From NCBI RefSeq assembly GCF_003609605.1, contig NZ_MCHY01000011.1:1-64000 (forward strand): DNA of 64,000 nucleotides, given 5' to 3'. The DNA comes from Ammoniphilus oxalaticus. Lineage in GTDB: Bacteria > Bacillota > Bacilli > Aneurinibacillales > RAOX-1. The notes below the pieces were generated by a model. The model was not told where the DNA came from, made no database searches, and saw only the letters and a list, made by a program, of their open reading frames with translations. A program made the translations under genes and the position numbers. This document shows positions 27,183 to 49,291 of this stretch, in pieces (position 1 is the stretch's first letter; each line of letters starts with the position of its first letter).

Positions 27183-27440
27183 ATTTTTTCCCCCTAATTA
27201 AATCGGAATTGGTCTAATTCCTCCCCAGGAATCTAAACTCTATTCTATCATAAACCAAAATGGTTCAATTAAGGAATAAGATCTATCACTTTAAAAGAAT
27301 TTTTTTGAAAAAATTACCGACAATCCTGCCTTCTGAGCAACGCGCAAGAAAAAAACCACACTGTTTTTGACTCTTTTTGTCATATTTTAATGGTTCCGCG
27401 GATAGACATGATTAAAGATCAAAAAAGGGAGTGTGGCACA

Positions 27441-27632
27441 ATGAAAGAATTCATGCTGCAAATCGAATCGATCACAAGCTGCTCGCAATTACAATCATTA
27501 AAAGAATCAATTAAAGACGAAGTCATTCACCCTCAGCTTCGCTGGGATGAACGGATGATTTTATATAAACAAGTGCAACTCATTAATGAACGAATTACCC
27601 AATTAACATTAACGGTCCAACCAACTTTATAA
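27441..27632 (+). CDS. Small protein, 63 aa, paralogue of the gene at 3078
   Basis: ATG 27441 lies nine bases after GGGAG. The protein core HPQLRWDERMILYKQVQ followed by LINERITQL is clearly related to the protein encoded at 3078-3257. A short variable N-terminal helix precedes it. There is no membrane segment, Cys motif or known domain. The family appears to be one small helical hairpin of unknown role. A strong terminator follows, so it is expressed alone. Confidence 0.75.
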   Translation: MKEFMLQIESITSCSQLQSLKESIKDEVIHPQLRWDERMILYKQVQLINERITQLTLTVQPTL

Positions 27633-27640
27633 CTAAAAAA

Positions 27641-27668
27641 GGTAGATGAACAAGTCATCTACCTTTTT
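27641..27668 (+). terminator. Terminator
   Basis: GGTAGATGA pairs with TCATCTACC, followed by TTTTTC. It also lies 18 bp past the end of the convergent HesB-like gene. Confidence 0.85.
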
Positions 27669-27685
27669 CTTTATATCATTTTCAC

Positions 27686-27973
27686 TTATATTTTCGTCAA
27701 TCTAAAATTCCCCTTGCCCGCGATTTCAACGTAGTCAATCTGATGTTTTTGGAAATATGGAATCGCATTGGCATGCAATAAGAATTTAACTCCTTCAAAC
27801 TCTAGAACTTCATCTCGGTACTCAACTGACTCCTCCAGAGTCAGATTCAATTGCGGACCGCCTCAGCTCATTCGTGTCGAGAGACGAACAAGATAGTCAA
27901 TGTCATCTTCTTGCGCCGCTACCGAATCGCGAATTACATTTAAAGCCGTTTCAGTTATATGAACCTGGATCAT
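27686..27973 (-). CDS. HesB/IscA-like protein with in-frame UGA, probable selenoprotein
   Basis: The frame runs from ATG 27973, six bases after AGGGGG, to TAA at 27686, 95 codons in all, interrupted only by UGA at codon 37 (27863-27865). Around it the protein reads LVRLSTRMS, then UGA, then GGPQLNLTLEES. In the HesB-related selenoprotein family (TIGR01911) this position, before Gly-Gly-Pro, is Cys or selenocysteine, matching the first conserved Cys of IscA/HesB. The rest (VEYRDEVLEFEGVKFLLH) follows the A-type carrier fold, but the C-terminal Cys-Gly-Cys is absent. A SECIS-like hairpin lies just after the UGA. The alternative is a pseudogene or sequencing error. Confidence 0.75.
27826..27844 (-). 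promoter_or_regulatory. Candidate bacterial SECIS hairpin
   Basis: On the minus strand CTGACTC pairs perfectly with GAGTCAG around the loop TGGAG. The stem begins 18 nt, and the loop 25 nt, after the UGA at codon 37. Bacterial SECIS elements need a short upper stem with a G among the first two loop bases at about this distance; here the second loop base is G. Confidence 0.6.
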
Positions 27974-28185
27974 AAAATACCCCCTGTTTGCTCATTTTCC
28001 ACTACTTTAACCTGTTCCAGGAAAATTGCGGAATCCCCGCTGCTCCCTCGCCCTTGCAAAAATGGCATTCAAACAGCGAGCTATTGCAACTTTCTTTCTA
28101 ATTTTACGTAACGATCTCTATTTTGTCTAGATTAAAAACTGTTTTCATAGTGGAAACGATAGAAGTTTAAAATAACGAAAAAAAA

Positions 28186-28220: not shown

Positions 28221-28442
28221 CTATGAATAGAAAATATCATTCAAACAGGCCAACTCACCATTTTCATCCAATTCAAAAAATTCAATTGTCTTTCCTAATT
28301 TCATTTCAATAAAACAATCCGAACAGTAAAAATATTTAGGAGCGACTTGTCCAACGTTTACCCGCTGACAGTTTGGACAGCGCACAATCCGCTCACCCGC
28401 CACACACCGTTCCATCAATTGTTCTTGAGATAATGCCCCCAT
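28221..28442 (-). CDS. Small zinc-ribbon protein, 73 aa
   Basis: Two Cys-x2-Cys knuckles, CPNC (around residue 22) and CSDC (around residue 40), form a zinc ribbon, flanked by an N-terminal helix and an acidic C-terminal strand. The precise family is not recognised. ATG follows the strong ribosome site GCAAGGAGG. That site lies inside a 12-base stretch whose exact complement sits 68 nt upstream on the same strand, just behind oppF, suggesting translational control if transcripts read through. Confidence 0.8.
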   Translation of the reverse strand: MGALSQEQLMERCVAGERIVRCPNCQRVNVGQVAPKYFYCSDCFIEMKLGKTIEFFELDENGELACLNDIFYS

Positions 28443-32113: not shown

Positions 32114-32887
32114 TTAATTAATCTGTTCAGCCAATTCAAGTTCATCAAACCAGCTTAACTTTTCTCGAAGACGCACGACTTCACCAACGATAATAATCGC
32201 CGGGTGTGAAATCTGAGCCTTGATCACTTCTTCTTCAATCGTTTCCAATGTTGCCGTAACCGTTCGCTGATTTTCCGTTGTGCCCCATGTAATTGCAGCA
32301 ACAGGCGTCTGCGCTGATTTCCCATTTGTAATCAATTGCTCACAAATGACTGGCAAATTGGAAACCCCCATATAAAAGGCAATCGTATCGATTCCTTGCG
32401 CCAAAGCCCGCCATTTCACATCCGAATCTTCTTTCCCTGCGCCCATATGTCCGGTCACCATTGCAAAATTTGATCCATAATCCCGATGTGTAATTGGAAT
32501 TCCCGCAAAAGCAGGAGCGGCAATCCCCGAAGTAATTCCGGGCACAATTTCAAATTTCACTCTATTTGAAGCTAACGCTTCAGCTTCCTCTCCGACGCGA
32601 CCAAACACACACGGGTCTCCCCCTTTGAGACGGGTTACAACTTTCCCTTGCAAGGCATGGTCGACAAGTAACTGATTGATACACTCTTGACGAAGCGTGT
32701 GATTATGCGGTAATTTTCCCGCGTATATTAACTCAGCCCGTTCATTTCGATGTTCCAATAAGATTGGATTCGCCAAACGATCATACACAATGACATCCGC
32801 TTCCTGAATACATTCCAATCCTCGTAAAGTAATCAATTTTGGATCGCCAGGCCCCGCCCCGACCAAATACACTTTTCCTTTGACCAC
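32114..32887 (-). CDS. cobA: Uroporphyrinogen-III C-methyltransferase
   Basis: Methylates uroporphyrinogen III at C2 and C7 using SAM to give precorrin-2, the branch point to siroheme and cobalamin. Family motifs are VYLVGAGPGDPKLITLRG at the N-terminus, then VTRLKGGDPCVFGR and VEIVPG-like KFEIVPGITSGIAAP. The 257-residue length indicates the stand-alone SUMT, without CysG or HemD fusions. Next to narK it may support siroheme for nitrite reductase. ATG preceded by GGGGGAAATAG. Confidence 0.95.
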   Translation of the reverse strand: MVKGKVYLVGAGPGDPKLITLRGLECIQEADVIVYDRLANPILLEHRNERAELIYAGKLPHNHTLRQECINQLLVDHALQGKVVTRLKGGDPCVFGRVGEEAEALASNRVKFEIVPGITSGIAAPAFAGIPITHRDYGSNFAMVTGHMGAGKEDSDVKWRALAQGIDTIAFYMGVSNLPVICEQLITNGKSAQTPVAAITWGTTENQRTVTATLETIEEEVIKAQISHPAIIIVGEVVRLREKLSWFDELELAEQIN

Positions 32888-33030
32888 ATCTATTTCCCCC
32901 TAAAACCCGCTCGTTCTTTTTCTGAGAGGTTGTTCGATTCCTGTTTGTTAATTAGAATATATCACACATCTATTTTTAATTCCACCTTTTCCTATGTGGA
33001 TTATAAAAGGGTCCATTTCCATGCAATGTA

Positions 33031-33063
33031 AAAAGGGCGTCTCCTCTTAGGAAACGCCCTTTT
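33031..33063 (-). terminator. Terminator after narK
   Basis: AAAAGGGCGT pairs with ACGCCCTTTT across 13 nt, directly behind narK on the minus strand. Confidence 0.85.
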
Positions 33064-33069
33064 CCTCTT

Positions 33070-34404
33070 CTAGCATTTGACCTCTGCATTCTTTCTCGCA
33101 TAATAGTACCAGCAGATCAACAGACTTAAGCCATAGTAACCAAGAAAAATATAGAGAGCAACATTGGCGGAACCGGTCTGACTAATCGACCAACCAAATA
33201 ATTTAGGGATCAGAAATGCCCCAAAAGCGGCAATCGCGCCCGTAAAGCCAAGCACAGGCGCGGCCTGTTTCGCCTCAAAAATAAATGGGATCATCCGAAA
33301 GGTAGAGCCATTGGCAATCCCTGTTGTAAAAAACAGTAAAATAAACATCGTCAAAAAACCAATAAAATGGTGTGTATTCAAGAAGAAAACGACCCCGATC
33401 GTAGCCAAAATCATGATCAATGTATCCCAAAACGTCACCATTGCCCCGCCCAGCTTATCTGATATCCAACCGCCAACAGGCCTGAAACTGGCCCCGACTA
33501 ACGGACCTAAGAAAGCCAATCCAACAGCATTCACTTCTGGAAACTCAGATTTGATCAATAAGGGGAACGCGGCAGAATAACCGATGAATGAACCAAAGCA
33601 CATCGTATACAACCAAGTCATAATCCACGTGTGCTTATTTTTAAATATCATCGCTTGTTCTGAAATGGATTGTTTGGCATTTGGCAGATTGTCCATTCCA
33701 AAAAATGCGGCAATCGTTACAATTACAATCGGTATGACCCACACATAAGCAGCGTTTTGAATCCATACCTCACCGCCTGTCGGCAGTTGTTGCGAAGCGC
33801 CTGCGATTCCCGTTACCATCCCCGCTCCAATCGCGATAGGCGTAATAAATTGAACGGCGCTGACGCCTAAGTTTCCGAGGCCCGCATTCAGCCCATTCGC
33901 TGTCCCCTTCGCTCTTCGCGGAAAAAAGAAATGTATATTAGCCATCGATGATGAAAAATTCCCTCCGCCAATTCCGCACAAAGCGGCCATAAGCGCCATC
34001 GTCATAAACGAAGTCTCCGGGTTTTGAATGGCAACGCCAATTCCAACCGCTGGAAGCAAGAGCGCAGCCGTACTGATCACTGTCCAATTTTTCCCGCCTA
34101 CTAAACCAGGCATAAAGGTAAAAAAAAGTCGACATGTTGCTCCGCTAAGTCCAGGTATAGCCGCAAGTGTAAATAGTTCCGTCTGGGTAAAACTAAATCC
34201 GACATCATTTAATTTAACAGCGATCACTGACCAGATTTGCCATACCGCAAAAGCTAAAAATAGAGCGGGTATCGAAATCCACAAATTTCGACTTGCATGT
34301 CTTTTTCCTTCCACTTCCCAAAAATGTTCATTTTCTGGATCCCAATCGGCTCCAATCCTCCCCTGTCGGACAGTCGATCCTGTCCTTTCAACCCCTGCTT
34401 TCAT
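33070..34404 (-). CDS. narK: Nitrate/nitrite transporter NarK
   Basis: A 12-helix major facilitator that imports nitrate, exchanging nitrite, for anaerobic respiration. The nitrate signature GIGGGNFSSSMANIHFFFP with RRAKGTANGLNAGLGNLG is intact, and a second Gly-rich segment FTTGIANGSTFRMIPFIF is near residue 350. 444 aa, with a longer polar N-terminus than usual (about 35 residues before helix 1). Its neighbours moeA, ywiC and cobA and the fnr locus elsewhere in the window fit nitrate respiration. narGHJI is not in the window. Confidence 0.94.
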   Translation of the reverse strand: MKAGVERTGSTVRQGRIGADWDPENEHFWEVEGKRHASRNLWISIPALFLAFAVWQIWSVIAVKLNDVGFSFTQTELFTLAAIPGLSGATCRLFFTFMPGLVGGKNWTVISTAALLLPAVGIGVAIQNPETSFMTMALMAALCGIGGGNFSSSMANIHFFFPRRAKGTANGLNAGLGNLGVSAVQFITPIAIGAGMVTGIAGASQQLPTGGEVWIQNAAYVWVIPIVIVTIAAFFGMDNLPNAKQSISEQAMIFKNKHTWIMTWLYTMCFGSFIGYSAAFPLLIKSEFPEVNAVGLAFLGPLVGASFRPVGGWISDKLGGAMVTFWDTLIMILATIGVVFFLNTHHFIGFLTMFILLFFTTGIANGSTFRMIPFIFEAKQAAPVLGFTGAIAAFGAFLIPKLFGWSISQTGSANVALYIFLGYYGLSLLICWYYYARKNAEVKC

Positions 34405-34673
34405 ATCCCATCTTTCCCTTTCCCGCGTTCATATTTTCCTCTTTGCTTTGAATCATACCCCTGAGCTGTAACGCGCCATTATAGATGACCCACACTTGCT
34501 TATCCCCGCACGTCACCAATCACACATATTTTCAAACGTAATAACATTAAGTATATAGCTATATGTATTTTTGCGCTTGTCTAGATAAGGGGATTTTTAG
34601 TCTATCTACCTTGAACGAGTCAATAATGGGGCCCATTTTGCGAAAAATAGCTGGGGATTTGTTCATAAATAAA
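34405..34673 (-). promoter_or_regulatory. narK upstream region
   Basis: No gene is seen. The region holds an exact 12-bp palindrome ATATAGCTATAT (34553-34564) that could be an operator, and a lone TGTGA half-site (about 34508-34514, minus strand) without a partner. No complete Fnr box was found. Confidence 0.4.
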
Positions 34674-34700
34674 GGCAAGATTACAATTCGTAATCTTGCC
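34674..34700 (-). terminator. Terminator after moeA
   Basis: GGCAAGATTAC pairs perfectly with GTAATCTTGCC over a 5-nt loop. On the minus strand it is followed by TTTATTTATG. Confidence 0.85.
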
Positions 34701-34737
34701 TACTTTATTAAAAAGATTGTTATGATTGTCTAATCCT

Positions 34738-36018
34738 TTACTTCGTTTGGTCCCATGGCCATTCCGCCCCGTCATGATCTTCGAGCAAGAGCACATCAAC
34801 TATGTCTCCTATGGCGAATCCTCTTGTTCCGCCAGGCAACACGATAAACGAATTGCACAACGCTAGTGAAGATACGATGTTCGATTTATCAGCTCCACTT
34901 GGAGCGACATATAGCTGACTGTCTTCGTAAAAAATCTTGCTCCTCACAAAACGCGTAAACGGATTCACCTTTGGGAAATCTTCCGCTAAAATAGCTTTAG
35001 TCCGTTGCAGATGCGGCTTTTTGGAACAAAGCAACGTTTTAACAATCGGACGCGCGTAAAGTTCGTAACCGACATAACAAGCAGACGGATTGCCGGACAA
35101 GCCAAACAGTATTTTTCCATTCCAGTGAGCAACGGTCGTGACACTGCCAGGACGCATCGCAATCTTGTTAAACAAAACATCTGCGCCAAGTCTATCATAA
35201 ATAATCGGGAGGTAATCAAAGTCTCCAACAGACACCCCGCCTGTTGTGACAAGTATATCAACATCAGCCAACGCTTTTGTTATGGCCGCAAACGATGCTT
35301 CTAAATCATCCGCCAACTTGCCAAAATAGACAGGTTCCGCGCCCGAACGAATGATTTGAGAAATAATCATATAGGCATTGCTATTTCTAATTTTACCGGG
35401 AACCAATGGCTCGTCCACATCCAACAGCTCTGAACCCGTCGCAAATACGCCGACCTTCGGCTTCTTAGCTACTTTCACTTGATGATAACCGAATGTCGCC
35501 AATAACGCTTTGACCCCTGGATTAATATACGTCCCCTTTTCCACGATCGGCGTTCCCGCCTTCATATCTTGGCCACGGTAGGTGACATAGTCCCCTTGTT
35601 CTATGAATCGTTTCGCTTTGACCTTTGTTTTACCTTGATCTATAAACGTTTCCGTTAATTCAAGCGGGATCACCGCGGTTGCTCCGACAGGCATTTGGGC
35701 TCCTGTCATAATTCTCACCGCTTGGTTTAATCCTACCGTTTTCAGCGGCACATCGCCCGCTCCAATTTCCTCGACTACTTCAAGGATCACCGGATTTTCA
35801 GAAGTCGCCCCTTCTATATCTTCCGTCCGAATCGCAAATCCATCAAAAGCGGAACGGTCAAAGTTAGGCACGTCATCAGTGGCAACTAAATCTTCACCCA
35901 AATATCGTCCATCGCAGTCATTGATTGACACTTGCTCGATCTGCGCTTCACCCGCATACTTCATCACTCGCGCAACGGCTTCGCTAACTGGAATTGACGT
36001 TCTTCTCTCTAGCAACAT
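34738..36018 (-). CDS. moeA: Molybdopterin molybdenumtransferase MoeA
   Basis: Inserts molybdate into adenylated molybdopterin. The family features NFDRSAFDGFAIR, a GTGASGSELLDVDEPLVPGKIRNSN-like segment (read here as FATGSELL... NSNAY), VTTGGVSVGDFD, and MRPGSVTTVAH with FGLSGNPSACYVGYEL are intact. 426 aa from the preferred ATG 36018, which sits after TGGAGTG; ATG 36021 is equally possible. It is 24-39 bp downstream of ywiC and probably co-transcribed with it. Confidence 0.95.
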   Translation of the reverse strand: MLLERRTSIPVSEAVARVMKYAGEAQIEQVSINDCDGRYLGEDLVATDDVPNFDRSAFDGFAIRTEDIEGATSENPVILEVVEEIGAGDVPLKTVGLNQAVRIMTGAQMPVGATAVIPLELTETFIDQGKTKVKAKRFIEQGDYVTYRGQDMKAGTPIVEKGTYINPGVKALLATFGYHQVKVAKKPKVGVFATGSELLDVDEPLVPGKIRNSNAYMIISQIIRSGAEPVYFGKLADDLEASFAAITKALADVDILVTTGGVSVGDFDYLPIIYDRLGADVLFNKIAMRPGSVTTVAHWNGKILFGLSGNPSACYVGYELYARPIVKTLLCSKKPHLQRTKAILAEDFPKVNPFTRFVRSKIFYEDSQLYVAPSGADKSNIVSSLALCNSFIVLPGGTRGFAIGDIVDVLLLEDHDGAEWPWDQTK

Positions 36019-36056
36019 CATCACTCCATCCACTCATAATCTCGTCAACTAGAATT

Positions 36057-48931: not shown

Positions 48932-49291
48932 CTATTCGTCACAATCTTCTGGCGTACCAGCGTCGGCCGCTGTTCGGAAACTTGTTCCGCACCCACACGT
49001 TGCGGTCGCGTTCGGATTTTCAATCGTGAACCCTCCGCCCATCATCGTTTCTTGGTAATCAATCTGTGTGCCTTTGATCAGTTTTAAACTGTCTCCGTCA
49101 ATGACAACCTTAATGCCTTGGATGGAAAAGGTTTCATCCTGTTCTGTTTCTTCTTCGTCAAAACCCATCCCATACGTAAAGCCGCTACAACCTCCACCCT
49201 GCACTCCAACACGCAAAAACACACTCGGGTTTTCTTGTTCGGCCAATAATTCTTTAATCTTCGTTCCAGCGCTTTCCGTTATTTCTATCAT
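48932..49291 (-). CDS. yutM: A-type Fe-S carrier (YutM/ErpA/SufA family)
   Basis: Receives and delivers Fe-S clusters. All three cluster cysteines are present: GGGCSGFTYGM (around residue 42) and TCGCGTSF near the C-terminus. 119 aa from ATG 49291, which follows AAGGAGGG; upstream in-frame ATGs lack a site. It is the canonical family member, in contrast to the Sec-containing HesB-like gene at 27686. Synteny with yuzB and nifU downstream supports YutM. Confidence 0.93.
   Translation of the reverse strand: MIEITESAGTKIKELLAEQENPSVFLRVGVQGGGCSGFTYGMGFDEEETEQDETFSIQGIKVVIDGDSLKLIKGTQIDYQETMMGGGFTIENPNATATCGCGTSFRTAADAGTPEDCDE

Follow-up and report, generated by a model that had tools for sequence, protein, structure and literature searches.

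A predicted cysteine-free HesB-like selenoprotein of Ammoniphilus oxalaticus, with relatives that often adjoin sulfane-sulfur genes

HesB-like selenoproteins have been known since the 2000s (PMC1794560) and were already listed as a known family in 2005 (PMC1088965); Table 1 of a 2026 review gives the family with the motif UxGP (PMC13188914). Mutagenesis and 75Se labelling reportedly identified the Methanococcus maripaludis member, and the function of this protein was called not clear (PMC11097638). The A-type carriers IscA, SufA and ErpA (PF01521) are the related proteins with a C-terminal CxC pair of Cys residues. An IscA-like fold in a sulfur-metabolism setting is also found in DsrR of Allochromatium vinosum, a protein found mainly in Pseudomonadota (PMC11406059) and described in the title of its paper as without Fe and Fe-S binding. 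A further point of comparison in Bacillus licheniformis is the yrkD-pdo cluster, a relative of the Staphylococcus aureus cst system. This cluster of 11 co-transcribed genes is repressed by a sulfane-sulfur sensor (PMC9918477). It includes the CstR-like YrkD, the DsrE-like YrkE, the rhodanese YrkF, the PDO-like YrkH, the TusA protein YrkI and the TauE protein YrkJ, and HesB is not mentioned in the main text of that paper (PMC9918477).

Here we analyse a hesB-like gene in a stretch of 64,000 nucleotides of Ammoniphilus oxalaticus (the window; positions 1 to 64,000 of contig NZ_MCHY01000011.1). The predicted product has in common with HesB-like selenoproteins, represented by the models TIGR01911 (HesB_rel_seleno) and NF038090 (IscA_HesB_Se), the domain, a similar length, selenocysteine (Sec) in a UGGP motif and a SECIS-type hairpin. 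That such selenoproteins were already known had been pointed out in the preliminary description of this DNA, and the literature agrees. A Cys-free subgroup was not foreseen there.

A hesB-like gene with an in-frame UGA

The gene lies on the minus strand at 27686..27973 and comprises 95 codons: 36 from the ATG start (27971..27973), an in-frame UGA as codon 37 (27863..27865) and a further 58, followed by a TAA stop (27686..27688). The assignment follows from translation, a PF01521 match and UGA-bearing homologues. The predicted product is MIQVHITETALNVIRDSVAAQEDDIDYLVRLSTRMSUGGPQLNLTLEESVEYRDEVLEFEGVKFLLHANAIPYFQKHQIDYVEIAGKGNFRLTKI, with U at codon 37. A ribosome-binding site, AGGGGG, was seen directly 6 nt 5' of the ATG (27980..27985, minus strand). 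The preliminary description had reported this frame with its ribosome site, lone UGA and TAA, and translation bore it out. It had also placed the span correctly but left the strand unstated; a plus-strand reading of 27686-27973 was rejected, since that strand has stops within the span.

Upstream on the minus strand, a promoter-like site (TAGACA-17-TAAAAT, 28101..28129) was called by consensus match only, and is weak in that four such sites were found against 2.0 (s.d. 1.8) in shuffled sequence. Between the gene and a convergent plus-strand ORF (27390-27632) stands a terminator-like hairpin (27636..27668), called on the plus strand only. It is nearly symmetrical and could serve both strands. 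An Rfam scan of the window gave no match above the gathering score.

ATG frames interrupted by a single UGA, with at least 30 codons before and at least 50 after it, number 13 in the 64 kb window. The single-UGA frame is therefore weak evidence alone, and the case for the gene is built on homology, RNA structure and the content of the genome. As judged from sequence comparison, the gene is raised above chance by homology on both sides of the UGA, by UGA in the same column in other genomes and by the downstream hairpin. Elsewhere on the minus strand, a 73-residue ORF at 28221-28442 carries CPNC and CSDC pairs and looks zinc-ribbon-like by eye, with no Pfam match, and the stretch 32114-36033 holds, also by eye, a run of a siroheme-type methyltransferase-like protein, a nitrate-transporter-like protein and MoeA.

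Selenocysteine machinery and the SECIS-type hairpin

The genome searched was the window's own assembly, which is 99.93% complete. The Sec system that the preliminary description had predicted for the host is present, with all four components above cut-off: selA at 588.7 bits (cut-off 267.9), selB at 391.1 (242.25), selD at 428.7 (125) and tRNA-Sec (selC) at 64.6 (47), whose anticodon UCA was confirmed by ARAGORN. UGA also stands within at least three further genes of known Sec families in this genome, namely selD and two fdhA genes. The selD gene (G000:C9:181052-181981) has its in-frame UGA in AGUGCKIG. FdhA is represented by four genes above cut-off, two of which have UGA in NRTUHAPS (G000:C11:121322-123331 and C9:617821-619827), while the remaining two contain no internal stop. 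The selD gene lies near selA, and both are close to a region of ribosomal-protein, EF-G and EF-Tu genes (neighbour names by eye). A reading of UGA as Trp was rejected: one tRNA-Trp was seen, with anticodon CCA (L012 and L021 scanned), and the genome has tRNA-Sec.

Among 61 genomes, our own included, selA was above cut-off in all ten with a UGA-bearing match, one of them the uninspected match of G013 (C44), against 16 of the 51 others (Fisher 5.9e-5; 1.4e-4 with our own genome left out).

Bacterial SECIS elements, according to the legend of Fig. 2 in the 2026 review, have a loop of 3-9 nt with G in its first two places, a stem of 4-16 bp, a distance of 16-37 nt from the UGA and an MFE of at most -7.5 (PMC13188914). 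The hairpin downstream of codon 37, CUGACUCU-GGA-GGAGUCAG (27826..27844, minus strand), agrees with this model in its GGA loop, its 8 bp stem and the 26 nt between UGA and loop; the 45-nt fold that contains it has an energy of -13.8 kcal/mol. Taken alone, the window's hairpin is less distinctive, with a stem of at least eight pairs in 230 of 5000 synonymous shuffles. The energy of nt 4-51 was -16.0, compared with -7.2 ± 2.8 in shuffles (p 0.006), and the minimum-energy fold of this stretch is a different, longer structure than the SECIS-type hairpin. Over 17 clade members (see below) the single-gene p values ranged from 0.004 to 0.25.

As the single-gene evidence is moderate, we relied on the alignment of 17 clade sequences. 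Here 97.8% of the cells of the hairpin are paired and seven cells show changes on both sides; these two values and the covariation score were each reached in 0 of 500 shuffles, the three pairs with two-sided change in 32 of 500 and the further pair types in 29 of 500. Over a wider set of 128 genes, with the clade's codon use applied to all in the synonymous shuffles, the mean energy z-score was -1.73 just after the UGA and -0.39 further downstream (n 125). Given the complete Sec system and the SECIS-type hairpin, we infer that SelB with tRNA-Sec would insert Sec at codon 37. The Sec system, the conserved UGA column and the hairpin all support the proposal, made in the preliminary description, that this organism reads the UGA as Sec.

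Fold and the Cys-free clade

The protein matches PF01521 (Fe-S_biosyn) over residues 3-91 at 28.6 bits, above the gathering cut-off of 26.3. It lies far below the equivalog cut-offs of the A-type carriers, scoring 27.3 bits for IscA (cut-off 150.6), 27.2 for ErpA (117) and 26.9 for SufA (136.2). An AlphaFold2 model built on the clade alignment had a pLDDT of 90.2 and a pTM of 0.79. Its best solved match was IscA (1r94; Z 12.7, 92 residues, 2.1 A), and DsrR (Z 11.9, 92 residues, 2.5 A), which to our knowledge is not a selenoprotein, AQ_1857 and SufA (Z 11.8 each) were tied with it within 1 Z. We therefore regard it as very probable, from sequence and model, that the product is a translated HesB-like selenoprotein of 95 residues, folded like the A-type carriers (IscA/SufA/HesB).

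What it has in common with the A-type carriers is the domain, the fold and the position of the first Cys, occupied here by Sec: when the genome's own SufA-like protein and solved A-type proteins are aligned with it, U37 falls in the column of their first conserved Cys. The C-terminal CxC pair of those carriers is missing. Indeed, the protein contains no Cys at all and Sec is its only Cys/Sec residue, so that of the three Cys ligands of an A-type Fe-S carrier only the first place is filled, by Sec. The genome has two HesB matches, both on contig 11, and the second, a SufA-like gene on the minus strand of the window (49022-49291), encodes all three Cys.

Homologues were found in all three same-family genomes searched besides our own, with 39-42% identity and UGA in the same column, and UGA occupied the aligned column in eight of the eight relatives taken into the alignment. 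A degenerate pattern starting TGA-GGN-GGN-CCN, scanned over a species-level genome collection, gave at least 119 matches in at least 117 contigs, and all the matches listed were recognised as HesB-like by hmmsearch (E 7e-35 to 3e-10). The hosts among the matches listed include Bacilli, Clostridia, Thermodesulfobacteriota, Myxococcota, Gemmatimonadota and Atribacterota.

Together with the window and the eight relatives, the 119 matches listed make a set of 128 Sec proteins. HesB-like selenoproteins mostly have a Cys after the Sec (105 of these 128, among the matches listed), whereas the window's protein has none; the 23 without one include four cut by contig or locus ends. In a tree of 124 Sec proteins and two SufA-like rows (109 columns; many forks unresolved according to the tool's warning), which omits the cut proteins L077, L140, L167 and L091, the window's protein falls in a clade of 17 rows with support of 100/99. 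All 17 are Cys-free and the two remaining Cys-free rows lie outside this clade, among the matches listed. L091 resembles the clade and carries a Cys immediately before the Sec. None of the complete clade members seen has the C-terminal CxC ligands. The clade records that bear a name come from Bacilli, apart from one for which Bacillota is the only label. In a subgroup of loci (L119, L151 and L208-L211), the gene stands near one for a second HesB-fold protein that has VRYGGFS or VRYGGYS at a possible Cys position and that we take to be YneR-like.

A profile of the clade, run over 398 genomes of the class, matched ten genomes (our own included) at E<=2.3e-28, the next match being at 9.2e-17. UGA stands in the motif in all ten, and the five that were new to the clade have Cys-free proteins too. 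One divergent homologue, L186, comes from another genome of the order (G007), which has selA; in this protein the UGGP motif is replaced by RHSCFMKL, with a Cys and no GGP. We do not claim that the position is always Sec, because this homologue carries the Cys form.

The SUGGP at codon 37 agrees with the UxGP motif of the HesB-like selenoprotein family, as the preliminary description had recognised from the Gly-Gly-Pro after the UGA; the membership of TIGR01911 that it had implied does not hold by score. The window's protein reached 23.7 bits against the TIGR01911 cut-off of 66.35 and 32.8 bits against the NF038090 cut-off of 85, and membership of either model by score was rejected. Three other clade members scored 36.0-40.3 bits with NF038090; across the four clade members scored, TIGR01911 gave 18.4-23.7 and NF038090 32.8-40.3 bits, at most half of the cut-offs. 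Both models do match all 16 proteins in the clade alignment, with best E values of 1.4e-6 (TIGR01911) and 3.4e-12 (NF038090). Sec proteins with Cys after Sec can also fall below: L068 (50.5 bits), L066 (51.5) and L134 (35.0) miss TIGR01911, and L068 (74.1) and L066 (47.6) miss NF038090, which L134 (123.4) passes. The curated cut-offs are thus no sharp border of the Sec family, since members with Cys after Sec fall short as well; among the proteins compared, the Cys-free clade lies furthest from the models. This is a practical gap in annotation: with these two models the gene would probably be missed altogether or ended at the UGA.

Sulfane-sulfur neighbours and possible function

To describe the gene neighbourhood, eight seed proteins, of which L205 gave seven and L169 one, were searched by tblastn (E<=1e-6) within 4.5 kb of each gene, or about 5 kb for the regions taken from the class genomes. 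The loci were the 119 pattern matches listed, the window, nine clade regions and ten of 14 further UGA-bearing matches of the class (those of G203, G036, G332 and G190 were left out), and 40 random regions came from gene-bearing contigs of eight of the nine clade genomes. Of 23 clade loci, the tree placed 17; five were assigned from their profile scores and L091 by eye. Nine of the 23 clade loci (the clade taken among the matches listed) had one or more sulfane-sulfur genes nearby, compared with one of the 40 random regions, the kinds being rhodanese, TusA, CstB-like, DsrE, TauE and CstR. With the two seed-giving loci removed the comparison was 7/21 against 1/40 (p 0.0016), to be read with the caution that the loci are related rather than phylogenetically independent and many are cut short. 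The other 14 clade loci, among the matches listed, had no sulfane-sulfur gene nearby.

Among Bacilli loci of the C-terminal-Cys type, three of 13 have such genes nearby, as do seven of ten further same-class loci (mostly with Cys after Sec) and three of 93 other HesB-Sec loci; the clade, C-terminal-Cys Bacilli and further same-class loci pooled give 19 of 46, the Bacilli and other loci again counted among the matches listed. Two or more kinds together were seen at 4/23 clade, 2/13 C-terminal-Cys Bacilli and 6/10 class loci, and at 0/93 other loci and 0/40 random regions, among the matches listed. The sulfur link is not special to the Cys-free clade, because other loci of the class show it no less often (7/10).

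In two same-family genomes (G002 and G003), the selenoprotein gene lies a few tens of bases 3' of a rhodanese gene and closes a series of genes on one strand, for MBL-rhodanese, TusA, TauE, DsrE, CstR and rhodanese, which in G002 starts with a TusA-rhodanese gene (Pfam names for G002). The gene kinds beside clade genes match those of the yrkD-pdo cluster. The third same-family genome (G001, L204) gave no seed match, and neither did the 9 kb around the window's gene (4.5 kb on each side), which is not beside a yrk/cst-type cluster. In our own genome the sulfur genes and the selenoprotein gene are on different contigs. On contig 6 (L227:6465-9582) TusA-rhodanese, CstB-like, TauE and DsrE genes stand in a row, and no CstR match was found in the 15 kb stretch that holds them.

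Because Sec replaces the first Cys and the complete clade proteins have no Cys, the usual three-Cys iron or cluster site is impossible here; an internal selenylsulfide is likewise impossible, Sec being the only Cys/Sec residue. With no classical cluster site, and with neighbours of the relatives that point to persulfide chemistry, we tentatively propose that the protein takes part in persulfide (sulfane-sulfur) chemistry and not in Fe-S assembly, and give this somewhat less than an even chance. The lone selenolate, held in the UGGP turn, would handle sulfane sulfur by accepting or reducing persulfide sulfur carried by rhodanese, TusA, DsrE or similar partners through an R-Se-SH intermediate, and a second reductant would come from another protein or a low-molecular thiol. 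It is conceivable, if a shade more doubtful, that the Cys-free HesB-like selenoproteins form a distinct functional branch of single-selenolate proteins that keep an Fe-S-carrier fold, have left iron chemistry and serve the bacterial persulfide (yrk/cst) system as acceptors or reductases of sulfane sulfur. If true, this would link Sec to reactive-sulfur homeostasis. In the open-licence literature searched we found no Sec-to-reactive-sulfur (persulfide) link for HesB-like proteins and no IscA-like selenoprotein of Bacillus, nor was HesB mentioned in the open-licence papers on rhodanese, TusA or sulfane sulfur among the matches listed. Three things are new as far as our literature searches go: the clade without Cys, its scores below the curated cut-offs and the link to sulfur genes.

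A general thiol or peroxide-redox role, in which the protein handles peroxide, disulfide or selenite and the sulfur neighbours are incidental, seems to us rather unlikely. The 2026 review deems redox functions likely for most uncharacterised selenoproteins (PMC13188914), and several clade loci (L143 and L160 among five; names by eye) have TlpA/ResA-like thioredoxin genes nearby; yet the protein lacks a CxxU or UxxC pair as well as a resolving Cys, and sulfane-sulfur neighbours are enriched over random regions. Somewhat less likely still is an iron or Fe-S carrier in which two or more subunits join their Sec ligands. The fold and homology of A-type carriers, with Sec at their first ligand Cys, would suit it, but there is no Cys to complete a site, the CxC ligands are absent throughout the complete clade members seen and the genome already has the three-Cys SufA-like protein (C11:49022-49291). 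We consider it improbable that the protein is a DsrR-like regulator or scaffold of sulfur metabolism whose Sec senses reactive sulfur with no turnover: DsrR, which has a part in the regulation of sulfur oxidation (PMC11406059), ranks with the best structural matches, but a shared fold shows no function, and IscA, SufA and AQ_1857 match as well. Finally, a lone in-frame stop looks like a sequencing error, which the preliminary description had thought unlikely, or like a recent nonsense mutation in a pseudogene; we reject both with near certainty, given UGA in the same column of homologues from many genomes and genera, the complete Sec system and the covarying hairpin.

The Cys-free subgroup narrows the question of what HesB-like selenoproteins do: the three-Cys site and the internal selenylsulfide are excluded, and the neighbours suggest sulfane sulfur. 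That relatives often adjoin reactive-sulfur genes is a testable clue to the role of the protein family. Cultured, named hosts put tests of the Cys-free clade within reach, among them Neobacillus vireti DSM 15602 and Robertmurraya massiliosenegalensis JC6, and Cytobacillus firmus DS1 represents the C-terminal-Cys type. In Neobacillus sp. Marseille-Q6967 (L100), two Sec HesB-like genes lie about 2.1 kb apart.
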